Origin: Candidatus Gastranaerophilales bacterium
Lineage (GTDB): Bacteria > Bacillota > Clostridia > Lachnospirales > Lachnospiraceae
DNA: 39,277 bases
Direction of reading: 5' to 3'
Assembly: GCA_023663225.1 (NCBI GenBank)
Contig: JAMPHU010000026.1
Span: 1-39,277 of the forward strand
This document shows, piece by piece, positions 11,302-34,586 of this stretch; positions within the stretch are counted from its first letter, which is position 1, and every line of letters begins with the position of its first letter. Made by a program: the position numbers and the translations under genes. Below the pieces are notes generated by a model. That model did not search any database. It had not been told where the DNA came from and saw only the letters and a program-made list of their open reading frames with translations.

Positions 11302-14300
11302 CTATTTATCTGTGTCATAAGATGCCAACTCTTGAGCTACCATACTGCCGGGAGGCTGATAGTCCGAATAATTTATAGCTCCATTGGTTCTTGACTTCTT
11401 TTCCTTTGGCTCGTAGGTCAGGTTAAACACTAAATCAGACAGCCATTTCTTGAAAGACGGATTATCTTGAAATTGCTTGAACAATTCCATATTGTCTGCC
11501 ATGATAGCAAAAATAACCTGCTGCAGCGCCCTTTCGCTTTCCATTCGGGCATTTTGTTCATCCGAATTTTTCATGGCGTTTTGATACCGTTCATCCTTAG
11601 CTACCATCTCCGGAATCTCAAGAATCTGCCGCCTGACATTATCCGCATCATTCCAATTGATGTTGCCAAACATGTCATTAAAATCATTCAAAATAATAGA
11701 TAACAAATCCATCTCAGGATTTACAATATTTCCTGTTTTACCAGCCGGAACCGGAGACACTTCCGCATCCTCATCTTCCAGCTTGATGGACATACACTCC
11801 TGCGCTTCCAAACGATAACTGTCCAAATCAATGACATCTAAGATTCCTTCTGAAAAATCGTCATCACGAGGAGATGGCAGTTTCGGAATCAACAGATTTA
11901 GAAAAATGGACAGTCTCTCCCACTCCGCGTTTCCATATGGCAAAATGGCTCCGAGAAATCCGTATGTACGACAAAAAGCCTTCGCTGCGCTTTTGAACTT
12001 AATCTGGCCCTCCGTTTCTAATTCTTTATATACTATCACGCAGACATCTAAAATCGGGTCAAGCCTGTCACGGTCAGCACCATTCAAATACAGGTCAACC
12101 AATTTTTCCACCTGTTCCTCTGAATAAATCTGATATTCTTCCATCGTCGCAATAAGATCGTAAAGCTTATTAGGATCGGTTTCACCGGAAAGCAAAGTTG
12201 TTCTGTAATATCTCGAAAATGCCTCTTCAATCATTGCCGGTTTATTGAAGAAATCCAGCACAAAGGTATCATGTTTCTGTGGGTGGCAACGATTGAGACG
12301 AGACAATGTCTGCACCGCACGGATATCATACAGCATCTTATCTACATACATCGTGTGCAGGAGCGGTTCATCAAATCCGGTTTGGAACATATCCGCAACG
12401 ATAAGAATACGGTAGGGATCTTTCTTAAATTTTTTCGGGATTTTGGCATCGGGAAACCCATTCAGTCCCGCTGAAGTCAGCGGCGTTTCCTGGCCCTGAT
12501 ACTTGCCTTCTTCTGAAAAAGCGATAATTGCCTTATAGGGACTATGCCTGTTTGCAAGGCTCTTGCCTATAGCGTAGAAATATTCAATACAGCGTGAGAT
12601 GCTGGAGGTCACAACCATAGCGCGAGCCTGTCCGCCAATCTTTCCTTTTGCGATAACCTGTTCATGAAAATGCTCCACCATCATCTCTGCTTTTTGTGCA
12701 ATAGTATAGCTGTCACTTTCTACAAAGGAACGAAGTTTCTTTTGCGCCCGTTTCTTGTCAAACATGGGATCGTCCTGCACTGTTTTTATAAGTCTATAAT
12801 AGCTTTCAATCGGCGTGTAATATTTCAGAACATCCAGAATAAAACCTTCCTGAATCGCCTGCTTCATCGTATATACATGGAAAGGACGATGTTTTATATC
12901 GTCACCATCCTGATACGGCACACCAAAGGTTTCCAGTGTCTTGTTTTTCGGAGTAGCAGTAAAGGCAAAATAGCTGGCATTTTTCAGCAACTTGCGTCCC
13001 TCCATCATAGCATTGATAGCATCCTCTTTTTTATCCATATCATCATCAGAAACAAAGCCGGACAATGCCAGATTCATCTGAGCGGAATTTCTGCCATTCT
13101 GACCGGAATGTGCCTCGTCAATGATAATAGCGAAACGATTGGATTTATGGCTTACACCGATATCCGGCACAACATATGGGAACTTCTCAATTGTGGTGAT
13201 AATGATGCGTTTCCCGTCTCGAATGGCATCCCGCAAATCACCGGAATGTTTTGCCCACGCCACAGTATTTGTTACCTGCATAAACTGCTTGATGTTATCC
13301 CTGATCTGCTTGTCCAATATACGGCGGTCGGTAACGACCAGAACAGAATCTACCATCGGATGCCCGTCTTTTTCCAACCCTATCAGTTGATGAGCCAGCC
13401 ATGCTATGGAATTGGATTTGCCACTCCCCGCACTGTGCTGAATCAGATACCGCTTGCCGATTCCGTTTGTGCGAACATCTGCCAGTAGCTTTTCCACGCA
13501 ATCCAACTGATGATAGCGCGGAAATATCTGCTTTATTGTTTTTCTTTTTGTTTCCGGTTCTTCCTCCACAACCAACTGCGCATAGTTTTCAATAATACGG
13601 CTGAGTTTCCGTTTTGTAAGAATATCTTTCCACAAATAATCCGTCATGATACCGTTTGGATTCGGCGGATTACCGGCGCCATCATGATATCCTTTATCGA
13701 AAGGCAAAAACCAACTGCCCTTTCCATCCAACTTTGTGCAGAATTTAACACGAACATCATCCACAGCAAAATGTACCATGCAGCGTTTGAACTGGAATAA
13801 CAATTCCCTTGGAACACGGTCTGCCTTGTATTGCTCTACTGCATCATTCACATTCTGCTTTGTCATCTGGTTTTTCAGTTCAAAGGTAATTACAGGCAGA
13901 CCATTGATGAAAATACACATATCAAGCGCCATCCTCACAGTGTCAGTTGAAAACTGAAGCTGTCTGGTCACGCTGAATATATTCTGCTCAAACATCTCCT
14001 TTGCTTTGGCATTATTCTCCGTCGGTGTCAGATAGAACAAAATAAGGTTAGCTGGATATACTTTTACGCCATTTCGCAACACATCAATAATGCCGCGCTT
14101 AGCAATTTCACCCTGCAATCTGTTCAAAAACTGCTTCTTTTTCATGTCTGATGCAAAAACACCCAGCTTTGCCATCGAATCCGGCTGTGTATTTTGAAGA
14201 AAACGAAACAGGCGGGTTTCATCTACGGCATATTCGCGGTTATAATCGGTATTCATACCCTGCTCATAGCCATTCTGTTCCACCAACCACTTAACGATTA

Positions 14301-14340
14301 AAGTTTCCAGACCATTCTCTTTTGTATTAGTGAAATTCAT
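11302..14340 (-). CDS. hsdR: Type I restriction enzyme R subunit HsdR
   Basis: HsdR is the ATP-driven translocase and nuclease of type I restriction systems. The 1012-residue protein has an N-terminal PD-(D/E)XK nuclease domain (FELKNQ near residue 153), Walker A SAGSGKSNS near 305, the DEAH box (IIDEAHSGQ) near 407, the FTATPKNKT motif and later RecA-like motifs (TGFDEPLL, LSRLNRCHP), then a C-terminal domain that would bind the methylase core. All key motifs are intact. It overlaps the AlbA_2 gene by 14 nt and is the last recognised R-M gene. Confidence 0.96.
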   Translation of the reverse strand: MNFTNTKENGLETLIVKWLVEQNGYEQGMNTDYNREYAVDETRLFRFLQNTQPDSMAKLGVFASDMKKKQFLNRLQGEIAKRGIIDVLRNGVKVYPANLILFYLTPTENNAKAKEMFEQNIFSVTRQLQFSTDTVRMALDMCIFINGLPVITFELKNQMTKQNVNDAVEQYKADRVPRELLFQFKRCMVHFAVDDVRVKFCTKLDGKGSWFLPFDKGYHDGAGNPPNPNGIMTDYLWKDILTKRKLSRIIENYAQLVVEEEPETKRKTIKQIFPRYHQLDCVEKLLADVRTNGIGKRYLIQHSAGSGKSNSIAWLAHQLIGLEKDGHPMVDSVLVVTDRRILDKQIRDNIKQFMQVTNTVAWAKHSGDLRDAIRDGKRIIITTIEKFPYVVPDIGVSHKSNRFAIIIDEAHSGQNGRNSAQMNLALSGFVSDDDMDKKEDAINAMMEGRKLLKNASYFAFTATPKNKTLETFGVPYQDGDDIKHRPFHVYTMKQAIQEGFILDVLKYYTPIESYYRLIKTVQDDPMFDKKRAQKKLRSFVESDSYTIAQKAEMMVEHFHEQVIAKGKIGGQARAMVVTSSISRCIEYFYAIGKSLANRHSPYKAIIAFSEEGKYQGQETPLTSAGLNGFPDAKIPKKFKKDPYRILIVADMFQTGFDEPLLHTMYVDKMLYDIRAVQTLSRLNRCHPQKHDTFVLDFFNKPAMIEEAFSRYYRTTLLSGETDPNKLYDLIATMEEYQIYSEEQVEKLVDLYLNGADRDRLDPILDVCVIVYKELETEGQIKFKSAAKAFCRTYGFLGAILPYGNAEWERLSIFLNLLIPKLPSPRDDDFSEGILDVIDLDSYRLEAQECMSIKLEDEDAEVSPVPAGKTGNIVNPEMDLLSIILNDFNDMFGNINWNDADNVRRQILEIPEMVAKDERYQNAMKNSDEQNARMESERALQQVIFAIMADNMELFKQFQDNPSFKKWLSDLVFNLTYEPKEKKSRTNGAINYSDYQPPGSMVAQELASYDTDK

Positions 14341-15700
14341 TCCTGCCTCTCCTTAGACAATTCTCATTTATTCGCCAATATCCATCTTTTCTTCCTCCGA
14401 CTCTTTCGATAAGACCAAGCTTTTTTAAGTCTGCCACTGCTCGTTGTACAGTTTTATAGGACACTCCTAAACGGACAGCTATTTCGGACATCGAAATGTC
14501 CGTTTGAACCTTTATAAGTTCAAAAACCCTTGTATTTACAGCCTTTCCTTTTCGGACATTTGGGGAAACATCTTTTGTCCTATTAAAAGCTCTGCTGCTC
14601 TCAACAGCTGTAAGCTTGACTGTAATATCGTCTCCAAGGATTCTATATTCCGGTGCATTTGCGCCAATCAAATCACATTCTTCACAAATCTTCTGTATTC
14701 CGCGTCCCCATGCCTCTATATAGCCGGCTCTGAAAAATGTATTTGCTAAATCCGGATTATATGGTCTGGAATTATGTGTTTTCATCAGATTTTCTGTTGT
14801 CCAATCACTAGGAAAGACACATGCATTGCTGATATACATAGCCTCATCTTCTATCCTGATTTGAATCGGGATGCCATCTTCCCATTTGCAATGAATCAAC
14901 GCATTGTACACAGCCTCTCGCACGGCCTCTCGCGCATAAGGGTATGTCTCCACTCGCACCTCTTTATCGTAAGATATAGATGCCTTTAAATATTTCAAAT
15001 AAATCAATTCGACTACCCTGTCCGCAATTAGAATAAGCGAACCCTCTATTACATCCTGATATTGCAAATCCGATCCTACGCCAAACTTCCCGATTTTCAC
15101 ATAACAACCTGTAAAAAAACGTTGAGGATTACGATAAAACAACAAAACTGCTGCCCTTTTTAATTTTCCATCCGTAATGAGTCCCAATTTCTCCAACAAT
15201 TCTTCATTTGTACACTCCAAATCTTTACGTGTCATTCGTTCTGTACGAACAGATTCCCGACGAAAAATTTCAAAACTCTCCATATCCAAGTCTGTAGCAG
15301 AAACATTGTCTATTGGAACCGCATCCCATCGATACCCCGTCTTTCTAACCAAAAATTCTGTCAGTGCCGATCCTCGGAGCTGTTGCTTTGTGCTTCCACT
15401 TCGATAATGATACTCGCCGTGATAGCTGACCGGATAAGAACTTGGATTTACAATAATCTGAATATATTGCTTCCCATTCTCATCCAGGCAGTTTACATCG
15501 GCTATAATCCCCATTGTATCCTTGATTTTATTGGGAATATCCTCAAGAAGTTTCTTGCAGTCAGCTACGCCAATAATTTTCCCCTTGTCATCAAGTCCAA
15601 TATAGATACATCCTCCCTGTGCATTAGCAAAACCGCATATCCATTTCAGATATTCATCCCTCCAAGACTCTTTATATTCTATATTTTGACTTTCCGCCAT
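14327..15700 (-). CDS. Schlafen AlbA_2-domain protein with C-terminal winged helix
   Basis: The 457-residue protein opens with the AlbA_2 signature (NIEYKESW, FANAQGGCIYIGLDD), as in the RNA/DNA-binding Schlafen AlbA_2 domain. It then has a GHKL-like region (VREAVYNALIHCKW, GRGIQKICEE) and ends in a helix-turn-helix (MSEIAVRLGVSYKTVQRAV). Such proteins are often annotated as transcriptional regulators or RecG-like proteins. GGAGG precedes the ATG. It overlaps hsdR by 14 nt and sits inside the type I R-M operon, so it may control restriction or act as an added defence factor. No catalytic activity can be assigned from sequence alone. Confidence 0.85.
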   Translation of the reverse strand: MAESQNIEYKESWRDEYLKWICGFANAQGGCIYIGLDDKGKIIGVADCKKLLEDIPNKIKDTMGIIADVNCLDENGKQYIQIIVNPSSYPVSYHGEYHYRSGSTKQQLRGSALTEFLVRKTGYRWDAVPIDNVSATDLDMESFEIFRRESVRTERMTRKDLECTNEELLEKLGLITDGKLKRAAVLLFYRNPQRFFTGCYVKIGKFGVGSDLQYQDVIEGSLILIADRVVELIYLKYLKASISYDKEVRVETYPYAREAVREAVYNALIHCKWEDGIPIQIRIEDEAMYISNACVFPSDWTTENLMKTHNSRPYNPDLANTFFRAGYIEAWGRGIQKICEECDLIGANAPEYRILGDDITVKLTAVESSRAFNRTKDVSPNVRKGKAVNTRVFELIKVQTDISMSEIAVRLGVSYKTVQRAVADLKKLGLIERVGGRKDGYWRINENCLRRGRNEFH

Positions 15701-15764
15701 ACTTCCTTTCCTCCAAAAAACTATCCCACCATTTGTGAACTCAATGCGTTCGTATTTGAAAACA

Positions 15765-15971
15765 TCAAATAAAACCTCTTTCAGATTTTCCGCTCACTGT
15801 GTGGAAAATCTCAGGGAAACCACCAATACTACATTTATATCTTGCATATTTTTCCGTTTCTTCAACGCCGGATTTTCTCCACCATTTTTCCCATTCGGAA
15901 TAATTGGGGTTATTATCCATGCTGTTTTTCACAAATTCAGAAAACATTTTTATAAAATCCATATCATTCAT
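15765..15971 (-). CDS. 68-residue unknown protein coupled to hsdS
   Basis: The start at 15971 (MNDMDFIKMF) is chosen because AGGAGG lies 9 nt upstream inside the hsdS end; an upstream ATG at 16016 lacks this. The gene overlaps the hsdS stop by 8 nt, so it is translationally coupled. The product is acidic N-terminally and Trp/Lys-rich in the middle (NPNYSEWEKWWRKSG), without TM segments. No family is recognised. Position suggests a small accessory or regulator of the restriction complex. Confidence 0.6.
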   Translation of the reverse strand: MNDMDFIKMFSEFVKNSMDNNPNYSEWEKWWRKSGVEETEKYARYKCSIGGFPEIFHTVSGKSERGFI

Positions 15972-17340
15972 AGAAACTATCCTCCTGTTTTGCAATTTCA
16001 ATATCCATATCTTCACTCACATATTCGTATTCCTGAATTTCAATATTGCGAACATCCACTTTCCCTGTAACCACATCAGAGATAAGACGAGCTTTATATT
16101 CTTCCAATTGCCTTATTTGCATATTCTTCAAATCAATTACTTTCGCAATTTTTGCAAATTGATTATTGAGAAATGTTACAATTTTCTCCTGCTCTCTTAT
16201 TGGAGGCAACGGCATCATAGTAGACAATACTTTGTCTTTTGTAAAATGCGGAATTGTTGCAACACTGCAAATATTTTTCATATATCCTCGTGCCACAAGG
16301 CTTTGAATCCAATAACAAAGGAACGAATTCAGTGCTTGTGTATCCTTAGGACGAATAATATGAATAGAATTTTGCACATAAATTTGCCTATCTTGTAAAT
16401 TTTGCACGATTGCTGCATTACCCGCGCCAGCTCCGCCTTCTACTACCAATAAATCATCAAGTTGAACCTGATACTGCTCTTTTTCTGATTCAGAAAACCA
16501 CATTCGCTTAAGATTCGATAAGTCAACATCGTCAAAATGAACGTCCTTTGCACATATATATTCCTCGTATGAACAGTTTTCATTGCTAGGATTTGATGAA
16601 AGCATTTTACCAAGTATAACCGAGTATACTCGCCTTAGCGAAACTACTTTCCAATGATGTGGTATAGAACCAACCCATTCATAACCGCTGGCAATGGTGT
16701 TGGATTCGGTGTCTAAACCCTTTGTAATTACCTGATGAACTAAGCTGTTTTTCAGTTCATATAGTTTTCCAATCTGCTTTTTCCTAATGTTAATCAACCG
16801 ATTGATTACTGACACCTTCCAGTCGAGAAATCGCACAATCTGGTCTTGCTCAGGACGGGGAGGAACGGGATAAAACTGTGCTGCAAAAACTTCAAAGCGA
16901 AAATCTGATGAGCGCTCTCTGATTCCTCTGTATAGAGATTGTATAAAACCAGTCCGCGCCATTTCTCGAAGTAGGAGTGCATAGTATTGATTATTGCTGT
17001 CACCTTTGGCTTGGCAAACACTGTACACAGGCGTTCCCTTACCATCGGAATCAGATACACCAGTGGAACCTGCGAATGCATCCATTACATGAATAACAAG
17101 GTCACCTTTTTTGATTCCTTGATAACCTATCTCCTTCAATGACTCTGTGAATCCAGTAATTCTGCGTTTTTTCCTCAAAGTAACAGTTCCATCCCGAAAA
17201 CAGGTAACAATTTCATCTGTATCGCTCGTTGGACGTTGCATTTTTTGATATAGATTCTTCCCACGTACCAATCTCCAATGTGACGGCATTTTTTCAATCC
17301 AAGGAACAGGCGAAAGGATATAACTTTCGTATTCTCTCAT
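15964..17340 (-). CDS. hsdS: Type I restriction specificity subunit HsdS
   Basis: HsdS reads the bipartite DNA target for methylation and cleavage. The 458-residue protein has two target-recognition domains, each introduced by a W-containing motif (MPSHWRLVRG and IPHHWKVVSLR) and followed by conserved helices (PRPEQDQIVRFLD and PPIREQEKIVTFLN). The length is normal and both halves are present. The ATG overlaps the hsdM stop by 4 nt. No second or inverted hsdS copy occurs in the window, so phase-variable shuffling is not indicated here. Confidence 0.95.
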   Translation of the reverse strand: MREYESYILSPVPWIEKMPSHWRLVRGKNLYQKMQRPTSDTDEIVTCFRDGTVTLRKKRRITGFTESLKEIGYQGIKKGDLVIHVMDAFAGSTGVSDSDGKGTPVYSVCQAKGDSNNQYYALLLREMARTGFIQSLYRGIRERSSDFRFEVFAAQFYPVPPRPEQDQIVRFLDWKVSVINRLINIRKKQIGKLYELKNSLVHQVITKGLDTESNTIASGYEWVGSIPHHWKVVSLRRVYSVILGKMLSSNPSNENCSYEEYICAKDVHFDDVDLSNLKRMWFSESEKEQYQVQLDDLLVVEGGAGAGNAAIVQNLQDRQIYVQNSIHIIRPKDTQALNSFLCYWIQSLVARGYMKNICSVATIPHFTKDKVLSTMMPLPPIREQEKIVTFLNNQFAKIAKVIDLKNMQIRQLEEYKARLISDVVTGKVDVRNIEIQEYEYVSEDMDIEIAKQEDSFYE

Positions 17341-19409
17341 TGTACTTCCTCCATAATCTCCTCCATCATGCCATCCGCCTCCTTTTCCAGCGCACGAAGG
17401 TCGGCAAGAATATCCGCCATTTCACGCAATTCCACCGGCTTATAGAAATACTTGGTGAAACTGATCTCATAACCAATCTGCGTTTTCTTTTCATCTATAT
17501 AGGCATCGGGAGCGTAGGTCAGCACCTCGTTTCTGATAAAAGCATCAATGCCACCCTCATAAGTGAAAGGGATATTCTCTGTATCTCGCAAATCGACATC
17601 TGCCTCGCCCTCTATCGGTTTTGCGGAAGGGTCTTTCTCTGTAATAAACGGGCGGATCTTTTTAAGAACAGCCGCTTTCAGCTTTGTCGCTCTGGCAAAC
17701 ACTGTCCAATCATCAAGAGGTGCCATTTTAGCCGCCGCTTGTATCGCAGTGCAGACAGAATCGTATTCCCCTGCTTTTACGAAAATATCTACAGGAATTA
17801 TCCTGTCAGGGTAAATGTGTAACCGCAGCGGACGTTCCACTGTGACATTCCAGTAACCAAACTCCTTGTTGTTGAAAACCTTGCTTACCTCGCTTTCCTC
17901 CATCTCAAGGAAGATGCGGAGTATCTCGTTTTTGATTTCCGTTGTAAACTCGCAGTTCTTCTTACCCATATTCTTGCGGAGCGGTGACTTCATGCCGCTC
18001 GCGTCAATCAGTTGGATTTTTCCCTTACGGCGTTCTTCCTTTCTGTTGGAAAGCACCCAGATAAATGTCCCGATACCTGTGTTATAGAACATATTCTCCG
18101 GCAGCGCAATAACCGCTTCCACCAAGTCATTTTCAATCATATAGCGGCGGGCGTTACTCTCACCGCTTCCGGCATCTCCGGTAAAAATGGAAGAACCATT
18201 ATGTACTTCCGCAATACGACTGCCAAGTAGAGTATCCCGTTTCATCTTTGACACATTGTTAAGCAGAAAAAGAAGCTGACCGTCACTGGTTCTCGGAATC
18301 ATAGTAAGCTGTTCGCCATCCTCCAGATAAACATTAAAGCGGCTGTCAAGAATGTCTTTCTTCCCACCCATCTTCTCTGCATCAGTTTTCCAGCTTTTAC
18401 CATAAGGCGGATTGCTGAGCATAAAATCAAACTGACGAGCAGCGTTTCCGTCAAGAGACAGCGTGGAACCATAACTGATATGCTCCGCTTGCTCCCCATC
18501 GCCTTTGAGAAGCAGATCTGCCTTGGCGATAGCGTATGTCTCCGGATTAATTTCCTGTCCAAAAAGATGTATGGATACATTTTTGCCGTGTTGCCCGGCA
18601 AGTGTGAGAAGTCTGTCCTGCGCAACCGTAAGCATACCTCCTGTGCCGCAAGCTCCGTCATAACAGGAATAGGTAGCATCCTTAATCTGATCAGCAATAG
18701 GAACAAACACCAAATCAGCCATCAGTTCCACCACATCGCGAGGAGTCCAGTGTTCTCCGGCTTCCTCGTTATTTTCTTCATTAAAACGGCGGATCAGTTC
18801 CTCGAAAATCGTACCCATACTGTGATTATCTAACGCAGGCAATTTTACCGTCTGCTTGGTATCGTCTGTATATATTGGATTTGGACTAAGATTGATTGTG
18901 GGTGAAACAAACTTCTCTATCACGGCACCGAGAATATCCGCCTCAATCATGGTGTCAATCTGATTGTGGAACTTAAATTTCTCCAAAATTTCCTGGACAT
19001 TCGGAGAAAAACCATCAAGATACGCCTCAAAATCAACTTTCAGTGTCTGCTTCTTTGCACGGCTAGTCAGGTCTTTCAACAAAAAACGCGATGAATTGCA
19101 GAAAGCCTGTCCCGCCGCATTGCAAAGTGCGGGCCACTGATTCGTAATACCGGCATCATCCATTCTCTTTTTCATTTCCAACACCGCAGGTTTCGTTCTT
19201 TCCAGCATTGCATCCAAACGGCGGATAACTGTCATCGGCAGAATCACATCACGGTATTTGCCACGCACATATACATCACGTAGGCAGTCATCGGCAATTC
19301 CCCATATAAAACTCACCATTTGATTGTGAATCTGATTGTCCATGCCTCCGCGTAGTTTGTCGCAACCCGCCCACCCCGATGCATATAATTGTGTTTTCTT
19401 GACAGACAT
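17337..19409 (-). CDS. hsdM: Type I restriction N6-adenine methyltransferase HsdM
   Basis: HsdM methylates adenine with S-adenosylmethionine and, with HsdS, forms the core of the R-M complex. The 690-residue protein has SAM-binding motif I (DGACGTGGML) and the catalytic NPPYG motif near residue 331, with the usual N-terminal helical domain (VILPMTVIRRLDAML). GGAG 9 nt before the ATG at 19409 supports this start; a second ATG at 19343 (MDNQIHNQM) is closer to the family's usual start. It lies 47 nt after the small DNA-binding gene. Confidence 0.96.
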   Translation of the reverse strand: MSVKKTQLYASGWAGCDKLRGGMDNQIHNQMVSFIWGIADDCLRDVYVRGKYRDVILPMTVIRRLDAMLERTKPAVLEMKKRMDDAGITNQWPALCNAAGQAFCNSSRFLLKDLTSRAKKQTLKVDFEAYLDGFSPNVQEILEKFKFHNQIDTMIEADILGAVIEKFVSPTINLSPNPIYTDDTKQTVKLPALDNHSMGTIFEELIRRFNEENNEEAGEHWTPRDVVELMADLVFVPIADQIKDATYSCYDGACGTGGMLTVAQDRLLTLAGQHGKNVSIHLFGQEINPETYAIAKADLLLKGDGEQAEHISYGSTLSLDGNAARQFDFMLSNPPYGKSWKTDAEKMGGKKDILDSRFNVYLEDGEQLTMIPRTSDGQLLFLLNNVSKMKRDTLLGSRIAEVHNGSSIFTGDAGSGESNARRYMIENDLVEAVIALPENMFYNTGIGTFIWVLSNRKEERRKGKIQLIDASGMKSPLRKNMGKKNCEFTTEIKNEILRIFLEMEESEVSKVFNNKEFGYWNVTVERPLRLHIYPDRIIPVDIFVKAGEYDSVCTAIQAAAKMAPLDDWTVFARATKLKAAVLKKIRPFITEKDPSAKPIEGEADVDLRDTENIPFTYEGGIDAFIRNEVLTYAPDAYIDEKKTQIGYEISFTKYFYKPVELREMADILADLRALEKEADGMMEEIMEEVQ

Positions 19410-27892: not shown

Positions 27893-29416
27893 TCACAATA
27901 TCTTTTTCGCTTTGCCAAGCATATGCAAACTGCCCGCACAGATCACCAGACTCGCCACACACACCGGCCAGCTCATAAACCCGCTCTGCGCCAGGCCCGT
28001 GTAGGACAGGCAGTAGGAGAGCAGATTGGAGATCATATGGACGGCAACCGGCATGAGAAAATTGCCGAAATATTCATAACTGTAGGCGATCAGACAGCCG
28101 ATCGCAAAGGCGTAAATGCCCTGCACCGCATTCATATGATAAAACCCAAACAGCGCGGAGGACAGGACGATCGCCAGCTTCAGCGTCAAAAATCTCCTCA
28201 TGTACGCGAAGAACACACCTCGAAACAGAATTTCCTCCGCGATCGGCGAGATGACGCCATAACAGAAGATTCCCACCAGAAAATACGCGGAATATTGATC
28301 CTCCATCACCGCCTGATAGGCGTCGGATTTGCTGGTAAAACCGGTCAGATCAAACAACAGATTCAGACCGACGACCGCCCCCGCAGCCGCCAAAGCGATC
28401 AGGATATAATGTTGGTTCGGTTCCTTTTTGAGATGGGACAGCTTGGTGTCCTCCTCCGTCATATGGATCAATTTTTTGGCTGTGGGCCACACGGGAACAA
28501 TACCCGCGAGAAAGGCCAGCGCCGACATAATGGTGGAAGTGTTCCCCGTGTAGCCGATCATCTCTCCCGCCTCATCTTTGATGAGCAGAAAGTCCGCCAG
28601 CACCCCCGACAGGCCGCCTCCCACCTGCACCAAAAGCCAGCTCAGCGCGTACAACACCACATTTCTCACCAGCATAAACATCAAAAAGCAGTATGCCATA
28701 GTCCAGATCCGCTGGGTCATGGGATTTTTCTTTTTCTGTCCGGACGCCTGCTCCTCGCTGCCTCTGAGCAAAAATTTCTGCAATTCTTCCACGGAACGGA
28801 CGATGTAATCCGACTTGGCCTCCTTCAATTCCTCCATGCTGCCATAGCCATACGCAACGCCCACGCTCTCGATACCGTTTTCCCTGGCCCCCTCTATGTC
28901 GTGGCGGCGGTCCCCGACCATGTACACCTGATCCGCCTGGATGGGTTCTTCTTTCGACAGACGGGCAAGGACCTCTCTGATCACTTCCGCCTTGGAAGAT
29001 CTGGCGCCGTCCATCTCACTTCCCACCACAACGCAGAAATATTTGTCGATCTTAAAATGCTCCAAAATGCGGCGGACATACTCCTCCGGTTTGCTGGAAG
29101 CCACCGCCAGATACATGCCCTTGGATTGTAGGGTGCGCAACATCTGCGGAATACCGTCGTATAGTTCATTCTCATAGATTCCGGTATCCTGAAAGCGTTC
29201 TCTGTATTTTTCCACCGCCTCTTTGGCCTGCTCTTCGCCAAAACCATAAAACTCCATAAAACTATCCCGCAGAGGCGGCCCGATAAAACACTCCAGCTTG
29301 TCCGGATCCGCCTCTTCCACGCCGAAGGACTGCAAAGCATACTGTACACAGGTAGTGATACCCACCTTGGGATCGGTCAATGTCCCGTCCAGATCAAACA
29401 GTAAATATTTTTTCAT
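27893..29416 (-). CDS. HAD hydrolase fused to a CPBP intramembrane protease
   Basis: Residues 1-215 form a HAD-superfamily phosphatase (FDLDGTLTD, ASSKPEEY, the GDRRHD motif) of the phosphoglycolate-phosphatase/pyrophosphatase type. Residues 230-507 have about eight TM helices and the CPBP/Abi motifs SPIAEEILFRG (near residue 394), then FGFYHMN and AVHMISN, the catalytic Glu and His positions of CAAX-type proteases. Both active sites look intact and the frame is continuous, so the fusion seems genuine rather than a sequencing artefact. AAGGAG precedes the ATG. It lies 2 nt after greA. Immunity, surface-protein processing or signalling roles are possible for CPBP proteins. Confidence 0.85.
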   Translation of the reverse strand: MKKYLLFDLDGTLTDPKVGITTCVQYALQSFGVEEADPDKLECFIGPPLRDSFMEFYGFGEEQAKEAVEKYRERFQDTGIYENELYDGIPQMLRTLQSKGMYLAVASSKPEEYVRRILEHFKIDKYFCVVVGSEMDGARSSKAEVIREVLARLSKEEPIQADQVYMVGDRRHDIEGARENGIESVGVAYGYGSMEELKEAKSDYIVRSVEELQKFLLRGSEEQASGQKKKNPMTQRIWTMAYCFLMFMLVRNVVLYALSWLLVQVGGGLSGVLADFLLIKDEAGEMIGYTGNTSTIMSALAFLAGIVPVWPTAKKLIHMTEEDTKLSHLKKEPNQHYILIALAAAGAVVGLNLLFDLTGFTSKSDAYQAVMEDQYSAYFLVGIFCYGVISPIAEEILFRGVFFAYMRRFLTLKLAIVLSSALFGFYHMNAVQGIYAFAIGCLIAYSYEYFGNFLMPVAVHMISNLLSYCLSYTGLAQSGFMSWPVCVASLVICAGSLHMLGKAKKIL

Positions 29417-30969: not shown

Positions 30970-30998
30970 ATTTTACCATAAAAACATTATTTATGCAA
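30970..30998 (-). promoter_or_regulatory. Possible internal promoter before mraY
   Basis: Minus-strand TTGCAT (complement of 30993-30998) and TAAAAT (complement of 30970-30975) are separated by 17 bp, with an extended TGG before the -10. It overlaps the 3' end of the GTPase gene and would let mraY-greA be expressed separately. Confidence 0.45.
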
Positions 30999-33677
30999 TT
31001 CCTGAAAGGGACGGTGATGGAGACCGTTCCCGGGCAGGCCGCTCTTTTCCAGATAATTTTCCCGAAGTTCCTTTTTGGCGGCATCCACCGCATCCTTCAA
31101 CTCCTGCGCCGACAGCCTGACCGCGCCGTCCCCCCATATGATCATCTGCTCCAATCTGTCCGAGGTCGCCACCGTGATATTCGCCTGACGCCCCATCCGG
31201 TGCACCGTCTTTTCGATATACTGATCCGCCGTCTCCGCCTCTTTTGTATACACGACATAAATATTATGAATCTGAGAGATGCTCCCTGTGCCTCCCTTCA
31301 CCTTGTAGGCATCGAACACAAGAATCAACGTCCCGCCCAGGTAACCTTGATAGTCGCACATCATATCGATCAGCCGATCTCTGGCCCCGTCTATATTCGT
31401 ATCCGCCAGTCGGCTCAGTTCCTCCCACGCAAAAATAATATTATATCCATCCACCAAAAGATAATTTTCCCTCTGCTCCTTTTCCCTAACTTTTGGCTTG
31501 CCCCGCTCCGTCCCCCTCTCCTCCGAATACCGCCTGTGATAACGCCGGAAACGATCTTTCTCCGTTTTTCTTTTCCCATAAGTTCTGGCGAAGATCTCTT
31601 CGATCTCTTCCTGTGTGATATAGTCCGCTGCATATCGCTCCTCTTTTTGCCCAAACGCCGACATGGAAACCGCCCCGTCACCCGACAAAGCGCGCGAACC
31701 ATCCTCCGACCCCATATCCGGCAGACGCAACTTGCTCTCCACATGGGCATACTGCTCCACTTCTCTCCAATCCACATAGACCCCCGCCCCGTGAGAACAA
31801 AACACCGATCCGCACGGGTTCGCCACATCGGCATCGGGATCGTACTGAATTGCAGCCATGACCTCCTCCGCGTTATGGCAGGGTTCATACCCCTTCAACA
31901 CGCAGGAAAGCTTGCCCCGTCCTCTCGTGTAGGCATTGACCTCCCGCTGGTAATCCCGCATGGCAGATACCGGCGCGCTTCCGGTCAAAATACTTTTGTC
32001 ATGCTCCGTCACGACGGGATCAAAGGCGCCGCACATCCGCTGAATGTCCGACATGGCCCGCCCGACGCACTCCGTAGGCAGCTCCAAGGTAAAAGCAAAC
32101 ACCGGCTCCAACAGGATACTTTTGCTACGGCGCAGTCCGTGTCTGACAGCGCGATACGTGGCCTGCCTGAAATCGCCGCCCTCCGTGTGCTTCTCATGGG
32201 CCTTGCCCGCCACCAGAAGGATCCGCATGTCCGTGATCTCCGAACCGGTCAACACACCTATATGGGCCCGCTCCTCCAAATGGGTCATAACCAACCTCTG
32301 CCAATTTCCATCCAGCATGTCCTCGCTGCAGAGAGAAGCAAACTGCAGGCCGCTGCCCCGCTCTCCCGGCTCCAGCAATAAATGCACCTCCGCATAGTGC
32401 CTGAGCGGCTCAAAATGTCCGATTCCCTCCACCGGCTCCGCGATCGTCTCTTTGTATACAATACTGCCTTCTCCAAACTCCACATCCCATCCAAAACGCG
32501 TTTTGACCAGGCTCTTTATGATCTCCAGTTGTACCTCCCCCATGACCTGCATCTGGATTTCTTTTCGTTCCTCCCGCCATACGATGCGCAGCTCCGGCTC
32601 CTCCTCGTTCAGTGCCTTAAGCTGCCCCATCGCCTGCACCGGATCGCTGCCTTCCGGCAAGATCATCCGGTAGACCAGCACCGGCTCCAACAGCGGCAGT
32701 CCGTTGCTCTCCTCAGCTCCCAATCCCTGCCCCGCAAAAGTGGACCCAAGTCCCAGCACCGCACAGACGCCTCCGGCGGGCACCTCGTCCACTGACCGAT
32801 ATTTGGCCCCGTTATAGATGCGGAGCTGATCGACTTTCTCCTCCCAAACGCCGCTCTCACCGGCGCTCTTTTCATTGGTGATGGTCTGCTTGACTTTTAG
32901 AACGCCCCCTGTCACCTTGAGATAAGTCAACCTGTTTTCCGCCTCATCTCTCGTCACCTTGAACACTCTGGCCGAAAATTGCTCCCCATATTCCACGGAC
33001 GGCATATAGCATCGGATCCCCTTCAAGAGACTGTCCACATGCCACAGCTTCAACGCCGACCCAAAATAGCAGGGAAACACTTGCCGCTTTGCCACCGCCG
33101 CCGCAATGTTTCCCGCCTCCATACACCCCGTTTCCAGGTATTCCTCCATCAGAGACTCCTTACAAAGGGCGATATTCTCCGCCAAAACCTGATCAAGCTC
33201 CTCTGCAAACTCCACACAATGCCCGTCCAGCCGCGCCTGCAGCTCCTTGAGAAGCGCTTCTTTGTCCGTGCCTTCCCTGTCCATCTTATTCACAAACAAA
33301 AAGACCGGAATCTCATATCGGTCAAGCAGCCTCCACAGCGTCTCCGTGTGCCCCTGCACGCCGGCCGTCCCGTCCACCACCAACACCGCCAGATCCAGCA
33401 CTTGCAGCGTCCGTTCCATCTCCGCGCAAAAATCCACATGCCCCGGGGTATCTAAAAGCGTGATCTCCAAACCCTCCCAGGTAATTTCCGCCTGTTTGGA
33501 AAAAATCGTGATCCCTCTCTCCCGCTCCAGCGCAAAGTTGTCCAAAAAGGCATCCTTATGGTCAACTCTGCCCATCGCGCGGATCTTTCCGCAGGTATAC
33601 AAAAGTCCCTCCGCCAGAGTCGTCTTGCCCGCGTCCACATGCGCCAATATTCCCACTACCAGTCTGTCACCTTTCAT
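30987..33677 (-). CDS. TetM/EF-G-like ribosomal GTPase fused to a Rae1-like NYN endonuclease
   Basis: Residues 1-650 form a translation-factor GTPase of the TetM/TetO/EF-G type: G1 AHVDAGKTT (12-20), RGITI (54-58), DTPGH (76-80), NKMD (130-133), then EF-G-like domains. A basic linker leads to a C-terminal NYN domain (about 740-880) with YLLVDGYNIIFAW, LVFDAYK, ETADQYIE and ATSD, matching YacP/Rae1, a ribosome-associated A-site mRNA endonuclease. The YSPVST loop of TetM, needed for tetracycline displacement, is replaced by AGKAHEKHTEGGDF, so drug resistance is not supported. GGAGG precedes the ATG. The gene heads the cluster and is divergent to thiT. Coupled ribosome remodelling and mRNA cleavage is the inferred job. 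Confidence 0.88.
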   Translation of the reverse strand: MKGDRLVVGILAHVDAGKTTLAEGLLYTCGKIRAMGRVDHKDAFLDNFALERERGITIFSKQAEITWEGLEITLLDTPGHVDFCAEMERTLQVLDLAVLVVDGTAGVQGHTETLWRLLDRYEIPVFLFVNKMDREGTDKEALLKELQARLDGHCVEFAEELDQVLAENIALCKESLMEEYLETGCMEAGNIAAAVAKRQVFPCYFGSALKLWHVDSLLKGIRCYMPSVEYGEQFSARVFKVTRDEAENRLTYLKVTGGVLKVKQTITNEKSAGESGVWEEKVDQLRIYNGAKYRSVDEVPAGGVCAVLGLGSTFAGQGLGAEESNGLPLLEPVLVYRMILPEGSDPVQAMGQLKALNEEEPELRIVWREERKEIQMQVMGEVQLEIIKSLVKTRFGWDVEFGEGSIVYKETIAEPVEGIGHFEPLRHYAEVHLLLEPGERGSGLQFASLCSEDMLDGNWQRLVMTHLEERAHIGVLTGSEITDMRILLVAGKAHEKHTEGGDFRQATYRAVRHGLRRSKSILLEPVFAFTLELPTECVGRAMSDIQRMCGAFDPVVTEHDKSILTGSAPVSAMRDYQREVNAYTRGRGKLSCVLKGYEPCHNAEEVMAAIQYDPDADVANPCGSVFCSHGAGVYVDWREVEQYAHVESKLRLPDMGSEDGSRALSGDGAVSMSAFGQKEERYAADYITQEEIEEIFARTYGKRKTEKDRFRRYHRRYSEERGTERGKPKVREKEQRENYLLVDGYNIIFAWEELSRLADTNIDGARDRLIDMMCDYQGYLGGTLILVFDAYKVKGGTGSISQIHNIYVVYTKEAETADQYIEKTVHRMGRQANITVATSDRLEQMIIWGDGAVRLSAQELKDAVDAAKKELRENYLEKSGLPGNGLHHRPFQELHK

Positions 33678-33707
33678 TCTTTTCCTCCATGACTCCCACG
33701 AGGGTAC

Positions 33708-33736
33708 TTGACAGCGCTCCCGTCATGTATTATAGT
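33708..33736 (+). promoter_or_regulatory. Sigma-A promoter of the thiT riboswitch unit
   Basis: Perfect TTGACA (33708-33713) and TATAGT (33731-33736) are separated by 17 bp. A TATAAT on the opposite strand (complement of 33729-33734) overlaps the -10, so divergent transcription of the GTPase gene may start here too. Confidence 0.8.
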
Positions 33737-33768
33737 CACATAGAAACCTAATATTATTTTCATTCACA

Positions 33769-33857
33769 TTGCTAGGGGAGCGCATCGCTGAGATTGAGGC
33801 CCACGCCTCTAACCCTCACCACTTGAACCGGATAATACTGGCGTAAGGAAGCAGGAT
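33769..33857 (+). promoter_or_regulatory. TPP (THI-box) riboswitch aptamer
   Basis: The THI-element consensus is clear: GCTGAGATTGAGG, ACCCTCACCACTTGAACCGG, ATAATACTGGCGTAAGGAAGC. A TGCT/AGCA closing stem (33770-33773 with 33850-33853) fits P1. It binds thiamine pyrophosphate and controls thiT. Confidence 0.93.
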
Positions 33858-33863
33858 GTCACC

Positions 33864-33893
33864 CCTCCTTTAGCACAAGAAGGAGGTCTTTTT
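33864..33893 (+). terminator. Riboswitch expression platform: terminator that also hides the Shine-Dalgarno
   Basis: CCTCCTT (33864-33870) pairs with AAGGAGG (33880-33886), followed by TCTTTTT. AAGGAGG is also the ribosome-binding site of thiT (ATG at 33894), so one hairpin can both terminate transcription and block initiation. Confidence 0.75.
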
Positions 33894-34586
33894 ATGTCAT
33901 TTTTTTTCAACCAAGAGGATGGATACTATTCTCTCACAAAGGCAGGAATGATACTTCATGTATGTATCATCGTTGCGCTGATCCTGTTGGCCGCGTTTTT
34001 TCAACGCCCCAAAACCAACGCGGCTGCCAAAAAGAAACTGTTTTCCACCAAACAACTGGTCTTTTCGGCTGTGGCCATAGCGCTGGGTTTTGCCACCTCT
34101 TACATCAAGCTCCTACATATGCCCTGGGGCGGCTCTGTGACGCTCTGCTCCATGCTCTTTGTCGTGCTGGTTGGTTACTGGTACGGACCCCAGATCGGCT
34201 TGACTGTGGGATTGGCCTACGGCATCCTGCAATTTTTGCAAGGCGGAGGCAGCTATATCCTCTCCCCCTTACAGGCGTGCATGGATTACATCCTTGCCTT
34301 TGCGGCGCTGGGCCTGTCGGGTCTGTTCTACAAAAAGGCAAACGGACTTCTGAAAGGGTATCTGTTTGCGGTGTTCGTCAGGGGCGTGTTTCACACCATA
34401 GGCGGTTATCTGTACTGGATGGAATATATGCCGGACAATTTCCCCAAGGCTCTGGCCCCCATCTACCCGATCGCCTACAACTATTCCTATCTGCTGGCGG
34501 AGGGCATCCTCACCGTCATTCTGCTCTCTCTGCCTCCCGTGAAAAGCGCCATGGCCAGGGTGAAACGCTTGGCCACGGAGGACTGA
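33894..34586 (+). CDS. thiT: Thiamine ECF transporter substrate-binding subunit ThiT
   Basis: ThiT is the S component that binds thiamine at the membrane and docks with the shared ECF module for uptake. The 230-residue protein has about six TM helices; VFSAVAIALGFATSYIKL, MPWGGSVTL and the GRV-like FVRGVFHTIGGY match this family. The TPP riboswitch directly upstream makes the assignment strong. The N-terminal extension of about 45 residues with an extra hydrophobic segment is longer than usual. The gene is the only native plus-strand gene and is convergent with addA. The EcfA/EcfT components are not in the window. Confidence 0.93.
   Translation: MSFFFNQEDGYYSLTKAGMILHVCIIVALILLAAFFQRPKTNAAAKKKLFSTKQLVFSAVAIALGFATSYIKLLHMPWGGSVTLCSMLFVVLVGYWYGPQIGLTVGLAYGILQFLQGGGSYILSPLQACMDYILAFAALGLSGLFYKKANGLLKGYLFAVFVRGVFHTIGGYLYWMEYMPDNFPKALAPIYPIAYNYSYLLAEGILTVILLSLPPVKSAMARVKRLATED

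Follow-up and report, generated by a model that had tools for sequence, protein, structure and literature searches.

A clostridial fusion of a Tet/EF-G-like translational GTPase with a Rae1-like NYN nuclease domain that appears to have taken over from stand-alone YacP

Introduction

Rae1 (YacP) is a small stand-alone NYN-domain protein, encoded in the rlmB-sigH neighbourhood, that cuts mRNA on stalled ribosomes, at the A site. It is the closest characterised relative of the nuclease domain described below, and the relevant passages of PMC10100781 report that it destabilises mRNAs in a translation-dependent way. That a YacP-like domain can be joined to a translational GTPase has been reported before: according to passages of Atkinson 2015 (PMC4342817), a YacP-like NYN RNase domain has been added to the Tet proteins of ten species of Clostridiales, where it was suggested to act as an RNase on rRNA or to contribute to resistance. 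The architecture discussed here is therefore not a discovery. The protein under study, in which a clostridial translational GTPase continues into a YacP-like NYN domain, shares architecture and class with those fusions and is, as far as a comparison of architecture goes, a member of their group in all but name. The same passages (PMC4342817) mention neither the A-site role of Rae1 nor the disappearance of stand-alone yacP nor the separate standing of the GTPase subfamily. What is added here, from genome comparison, is that the fusion appears to be the Rae1 of these bacteria and that stand-alone yacP has been lost. A literature search, with most subscription journals outside its coverage, found no later paper on the fusion. 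Condon's 2018 account of the distribution of Rae1 may already mention the fusions.

The DNA analysed, hereafter the window, comprises positions 1-39,277 (39,277 nucleotides, forward strand) of contig JAMPHU010000026.1 of Candidatus Gastranaerophilales bacterium (GCA_023663225.1), whose genome is a draft of 111 contigs.

Results

Architecture and Reading Frame

The fusion gene encodes a five-domain EF-G/Tet-type GTPase, then an extension, a linker and a YacP/Rae1 NYN domain, all in one frame (Table 1). The first-pass annotation had proposed a two-domain protein in one continuous frame, and this is borne out by the 896 uninterrupted codons and by Pfam matches to both GTPase and NYN_YacP; its further statement that all G motifs of a translation GTPase are present is also correct. 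Of the 42 named loci retrieved with the fusion protein, 32 have GTPase and NYN domain in a single frame, four are truncated at a contig end and six encode unfused GTPases. As both parts share one frame in 32 of the 42, the fusion is not a chance read-through. A frame break between the domains in related strains would have spoken against the first-pass reading; the fusion is one long frame in 51 of the 55 class genomes of the fused type, the other four being broken fusions. In G455 and G456 it is apparently split over contigs, and in G451 and G359, both draft assemblies, a frame break lies within it. At the loci concerned (L188 in G359, L189 in G451) GTPase and NYN domain stand in two overlapping frames, which may reflect a slip in sequencing, a frameshift or a genuine splitting of the fusion. 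No structure is inferred for the 5′ leader of the fusion gene, compared with shuffled sequences (z -1.32).

Table 1. Features of the fusion gene, in window coordinates, with residue numbers of the encoded protein.
Feature	Position	Strand	Basis or remark
Whole fusion gene	30987..33677	(-)	896 aa, ATG start, uninterrupted frame
Shine-Dalgarno-like GGAGG just upstream of ATG	33684..33688	(-)	read from sequence
GTP-binding domain, residues 7-226	33000..33659	(-)	Pfam GTP_EFTU 1.2e-52; all G motifs present
EF-G domain II, residues 234-318	32724..32978	(-)	Pfam EF-G_D2
EF-G domain III, residues 352-402	32472..32624	(-)	Pfam EFG_III
EF-G domain IV, residues 405-518	32124..32465	(-)	Pfam EFG_IV
Domain IV tip loop, residues 491-512, GKAHEKHTEGGDFRQATYRAVR	32142..32207	(-)	family signature, differs from Tet
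EF-G domain V, residues 522-602	31872..32114	(-)	Pfam EFG_C
Conserved C-terminal extension, residues 603-648	31734..31871	(-)	motif starts C600/H601; common to unfused relatives
Linker, residues 649-738	31464..31733	(-)	mostly disordered in structure model
NYN_YacP (Rae1-like) domain, residues 739-879	31041..31463	(-)	Pfam match residues 740-879

The NYN Nuclease Domain

The Pfam NYN_YacP match is strong (3.1e-47, 161 bits against a cut-off of 24.6), and the domain matches Bacillus subtilis Rae1/YacP (PDB 5mq8, 5mq9) at E 2.9e-28. As the first-pass annotation had read from the sequence, the acidic residues of YacP/Rae1 are present: by alignment, D743, D789, D818 and D840 correspond to D7, D53, D81 and D104 of Rae1. 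None of the 101 fused NYN rows, among which a few genes are represented twice, and none of the 34 stand-alone rows has lost any of the four, so that the reading withstands the check for lost catalytic acids. The fusion protein thus shares with B. subtilis Rae1 an NYN domain with all four acids, but carries it as the tail of a GTPase encoded elsewhere in the genome. In the window's own genome, this domain is the sole NYN_YacP match.

A GTPase Distinct From Canonical Tet Proteins

The description of the GTPase as TetM-like stands as regards its EF-G/Tet-type domains but not as regards an identity with canonical TetM. The best NCBIfam match is tet_protect, at 404 bits, well below its cut-off of 775, and the EF-G model TIGR00484 gives 315 bits against 659. 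With Tet(M)/Tet(O) the protein has in common its five EF-G-like domains and their intact GTPase motifs, and TetO can be aligned over its residues 8-600; it differs in its domain IV tip loop, score and position in the tree, and the C-terminal extension is its own. With EF-G it shares the fold, the G motifs and the tip-loop His, which is aligned with H494, but it carries a nuclease and scores far below the EF-G cut-off. The EF-G fold extends over residues 1-615 of the structure model, a comparison that effectively reached residue ~613 and barely covered the residues beyond.

A quick tree built from 66 GTPase rows places the 41 fused proteins and 14 of the 15 unfused orthologues in one clade (support 100), the distant unfused row L187 falling outside it; the eight canonical Tet rows form their own clade (support 98), apart from the former, and the fusion protein lies outside it. 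The domain IV tip of the fusion family has the consensus G[KR]AHxKHTEGGDFRQATYRA. P509 of TetM is the drug-site proline in passages of PMC8161019; at that position, by our own reading of the alignment and with the partial Tet row L199 omitted, 39 of 41 fused rows have Lys (Lys496 in the window protein) and 6 of 7 Tet rows have Pro. The earlier remark that the tetracycline-release loop of TetM is not conserved is thus upheld by both the tip loop and this residue. The window's own genome encodes two other EF-G-like proteins besides the fusion, and a profile search of it gave no tet_protect match above the cut-off. Judged by these sequence comparisons, the GTPase is a distinct Tet/EF-G-like subfamily and not canonical TetM.

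Extension and Linker

The C-terminal extension (residues 603-648) has no Pfam match. Its C600, H601, C627 and H645 (residues about 600-648, window 31734-31880, minus strand) are conserved in 37-39 of the 41 fused rows and in 14 of 14 unfused ones, L187 being omitted; our guess is that these Cys/His residues might form a metal site. Across fusions the linker is 60-114 residues long and poorly conserved, with the exception of a motif in which E691 and I695 occur in 40 of 40 and T699 in 97%, all three within a predicted helix at residues 689-700. In the structure model (pTM 0.58) the NYN domain is ordered and the linker disordered; a fixed docking of the NYN domain on the GTPase was considered and rejected, as the model leaves the position of the NYN domain unfixed.

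Distribution of Fused and Unfused Forms

The class sample comprised 146 genomes (requested completeness at least 95%, the window's own genome, at 94.5%, being included). The NYN family exceeds the cut-off in 99 of them, fused in 55 and stand-alone in 44, and in none of the 146 do both forms exceed it; a second NYN_YacP match in G425 stays below, at 21 bits. In the order sample the family is found in 268 of 294 genomes, with exactly one match in 263 of the 268, the split into fused and stand-alone having been counted for the class sample alone. At E 1e-140 the fused-family profile matches 64 of the 146 class genomes, namely the 55 fused ones and nine with an unfused GTPase, of which five have a stand-alone YacP and four have none, and 39 of the 44 class genomes with stand-alone YacP are without such a GTPase. 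Run on a broader sample, 119 genomes around Lysinibacillus, the same profile matches nine (seven fused, two unfused). The architecture is also found in single-contig genomes, for example G340 and G425. Of 118 order genomes, 8 contain canonical Tet genes (E 1e-200), and at least two of the 8 (G041 and G158) also carry the fusion. The first-pass annotation had suggested a possible ribosome-rescue or antibiotic-stress factor. Going by this distribution, the fusion behaves as a fixed chromosomal single-copy gene that took the place of stand-alone Rae1, not as an acquired stress gene.

Unfused orthologues from Brevibacillus, Lysinibacillus, Coriobacteriaceae and L. salivarius plasmids share with the fusion protein the domain IV signature and the C-terminal extension but lack the NYN domain; their identity to the fusion is 41-52% for the named loci and about 46% for L. 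salivarius. A separate YacP is present in Lysinibacillus and in two Brevibacillus genomes, is divergent in Collinsella, and is missing from the other Coriobacteriaceae genome. Note also that 33 Ligilactobacillus plasmid records (L. salivarius, e.g. NC_007930) carry the unfused GTPase, named as TetM/TetW/TetO/TetS family in most of the rows listed.

The Former yacP Slot

By Pfam, the neighbours of stand-alone yacP are cysS, mrnC, rlmB and sigH, and the gene stands directly before sigH at 15 and directly after rlmB at 14 of 20 loci. Seventeen fused genomes, chosen for contiguity, have no yacP frame in this slot. Eleven of them, including the window's own (order cysS-mrnC-rlmB-sigH), have rlmB followed directly by sigH. 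The distance between match edges is 13-76 nt in nine of these, 167 nt in G425 and, the largest, 617 nt in G340. The remaining six are unreadable at the slot, because sigH does not adjoin rlmB.

The five order genomes with two matches were re-examined together with G008, and some of them show transitional states. G136 and G154, drafts with 5-6% listed contamination, combine the fusion (running off the contig in G136) with an intact yacP at the old place; in G072, of the same genus, the fusion is accompanied by a yacP with internal deletions, and in G045 by a yacP fragment between rlmB and sigH (1% listed contamination in both). G340, a single contig with 1% listed contamination, has the fusion plus a remnant in the gap that matches the C-terminal part of yacP alone. 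G165 has one split stand-alone gene, and in G008 the fusion is present twice, one copy containing a stop. The NYN family is found in 16 of the 21 genomes of the taxonomic family to which G072 belongs, and two matches occur in the genus of G072 only (three genomes).

The separate yacP gene is indicated, by genome comparison, to have decayed and then to have vanished from the rlmB-sigH slot after the fusion arose; the fusion therefore very probably does Rae1's job, which it appears to have taken over from the stand-alone enzyme. A simple account of replacement is complicated by stand-alone yacP persisting within the window's own family, in at least six genomes among the matches listed (G290, G226, G297, G274, G232 and G185), in two of them in the old slot. 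As G185 has no yacP near rlmB and yet a stand-alone copy elsewhere in the genome, these own-family cases show that yacP can leave the slot without fusion.

Origin of the Fusion

In the same quick tree the fused GTPases form one clade (support 97), of which the fused protein of Traorella (Erysipelotrichaceae) is the first branch and which includes two unfused proteins of Coriobacteriaceae (Actinomycetota; L131 and L134), read as a putative transfer with loss of the NYN domain. In the NYN tree (136 rows) the fused and stand-alone states need three changes, with modest to weak support; L118 groups with the stand-alones, and L189, labelled stand-alone, is a frame-broken fusion. Constraining the fused NYN rows together was not rejected (p-AU 0.571; 36 of the 101 fused rows, L189 dropped). 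The fusion probably arose once.

Gene Context

Neighbour clustering at 61 loci (51 fused, 10 unfused) gave an ABC-transporter cluster scattered in 11 loci and, next in size, a cluster of five loci; as the latter is the largest, the ABC transporters aside, no conserved operon partner is inferred. A mobile element was likewise rejected, just two plasmid-collection records covering at least 80% of the protein, both large replicons (Monoglobus and Agathobacter), as was a defence system, the PADLOC matches being marginal alone (E 4.8e-4 and 8.6e-4). In a phage collection, the unannotated faecal 'Bacteriophage sp.' records MT835563 and MT835514 hold a nearly full-length fusion (at least 80% coverage) and are probably bacterial DNA.

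Elsewhere in the window, a TPP riboswitch (33764-33866, plus strand) precedes a gene for a ThiT-like thiamine transporter (33894-34586, plus strand), divergent from the fusion gene, and a promoter-like TTGACA-17-TATAGT at 33708-33736 goes with this unit. Type I restriction-modification genes occupy 11302-19409 on the minus strand (hsdR 11302-14340, hsdS 15964-17340, hsdM 17337-19409), and one frame at 27893-29416 (minus strand) encodes a HAD phosphatase domain and, behind it, a membrane protease domain of the CPBP/Rce1 type.

Discussion

The reading that we prefer, and whose chances of being right we consider evenly balanced, is that the lineage's Rae1 has been built into a ribosome-binding Tet/EF-G-like GTPase, replacing yacP, so that the nuclease would be brought to ribosomes with an empty A site. 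Its simplest rival holds that the two halves are functionally independent, the NYN domain doing Rae1's work and the GTPase having another role, with the fusion merely keeping both ribosomal or co-expressed. Each half does occur without the other in many genomes, the linker is long, variable and disordered, and the GTPase is retained without the NYN domain in two Coriobacteriaceae; the fusion has nevertheless persisted in many families of the class, stand-alone yacP was lost and not regained beside it, and the linker keeps its short conserved motif, so that we hold independence to be unlikely, although of real weight. Less probable still is a tetracycline ribosomal-protection protein in which the nuclease is a further resistance mechanism, as Atkinson 2015 suggested. 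The EF-G-like fold, the tet_protect match and the annotation of relatives as TetM/TetW/TetO/TetS family all speak for it, as does a chromosomal TetM-like protein of B. toyonensis, which may or may not belong to the present clade and gives resistance: passages of PMC5209696 report that the MIC of tetracycline fell from 16 to 1 ug/ml when its gene was deleted, so that an unfused relative might protect ribosomes. Against this stand the low score, the position outside the canonical Tet clade and the Lys in place of Pro509, and also the distribution, that of a fixed single-copy gene when canonical Tet is found in so few order genomes; moreover, G041 and G158 hold both genes, so the fusion is no stand-in for Tet there. 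Tetracycline protection by the fusion is possible but not indicated.

The ancestral yacP neighbours mrnC and rlmB act on rRNA. They would fit an action of the NYN domain on rRNA or tRNA, in maturation or quality control, and not on A-site mRNA, an older proposal for NYN domains cited in passages of PMC4342817; Rae1, however, needs translation to destabilise mRNAs (passages of PMC10100781) and the fused domain keeps its conserved residues, and we regard this alternative as very improbable. An artefact of assembly or annotation could be suspected in a window from a draft of 111 contigs, but we give it practically no credence, the same architecture recurring in the 32 intact named loci, with four more cut by contig ends, and in the single-contig G340 and G425.

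How a Rae1 built into a GTPase could work is a more tentative matter, and the following model we think rather more apt to be wrong than right. The protein would carry out a GTP-gated surveillance of ribosomes, inspecting those with an empty A site and, where these cannot be released, cutting their mRNA within that site, and would in this capacity have replaced Rae1 across many gut Clostridia. The first-pass idea of ribosome rescue with mRNA cleavage in a single step would be just as tentative. Bound to GTP, the GTPase would dock on the factor-binding site of a ribosome whose A site is empty, with domain IV probing the decoding site; upon GTP hydrolysis domain IV would withdraw, and the flexibly tethered NYN domain could enter the vacated A site and cut the mRNA. 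This stepwise order is proposed because domain IV and the NYN domain would hardly fit into the A site together. Tet proteins use the same ribosomal site, and passages of PMC8161019 indicate that their departure appears to need GTP hydrolysis. By contour length, a linker of 60-114 residues is long enough for NYN entry. The GTPase would thus concentrate the nuclease at ribosomes without A-site tRNA, and may choose whether translation resumes or the mRNA is cut.

If this is true, many gut Clostridia would carry out translation-coupled mRNA decay through one unstudied GTPase-nuclease, and the natural fusion would offer a direct test of how Rae1 reaches its ribosomes. It would also be a warning that some genes of gut bacteria annotated as "TetM/TetW/TetO/TetS family" fall into another subfamily and perhaps do not confer resistance.
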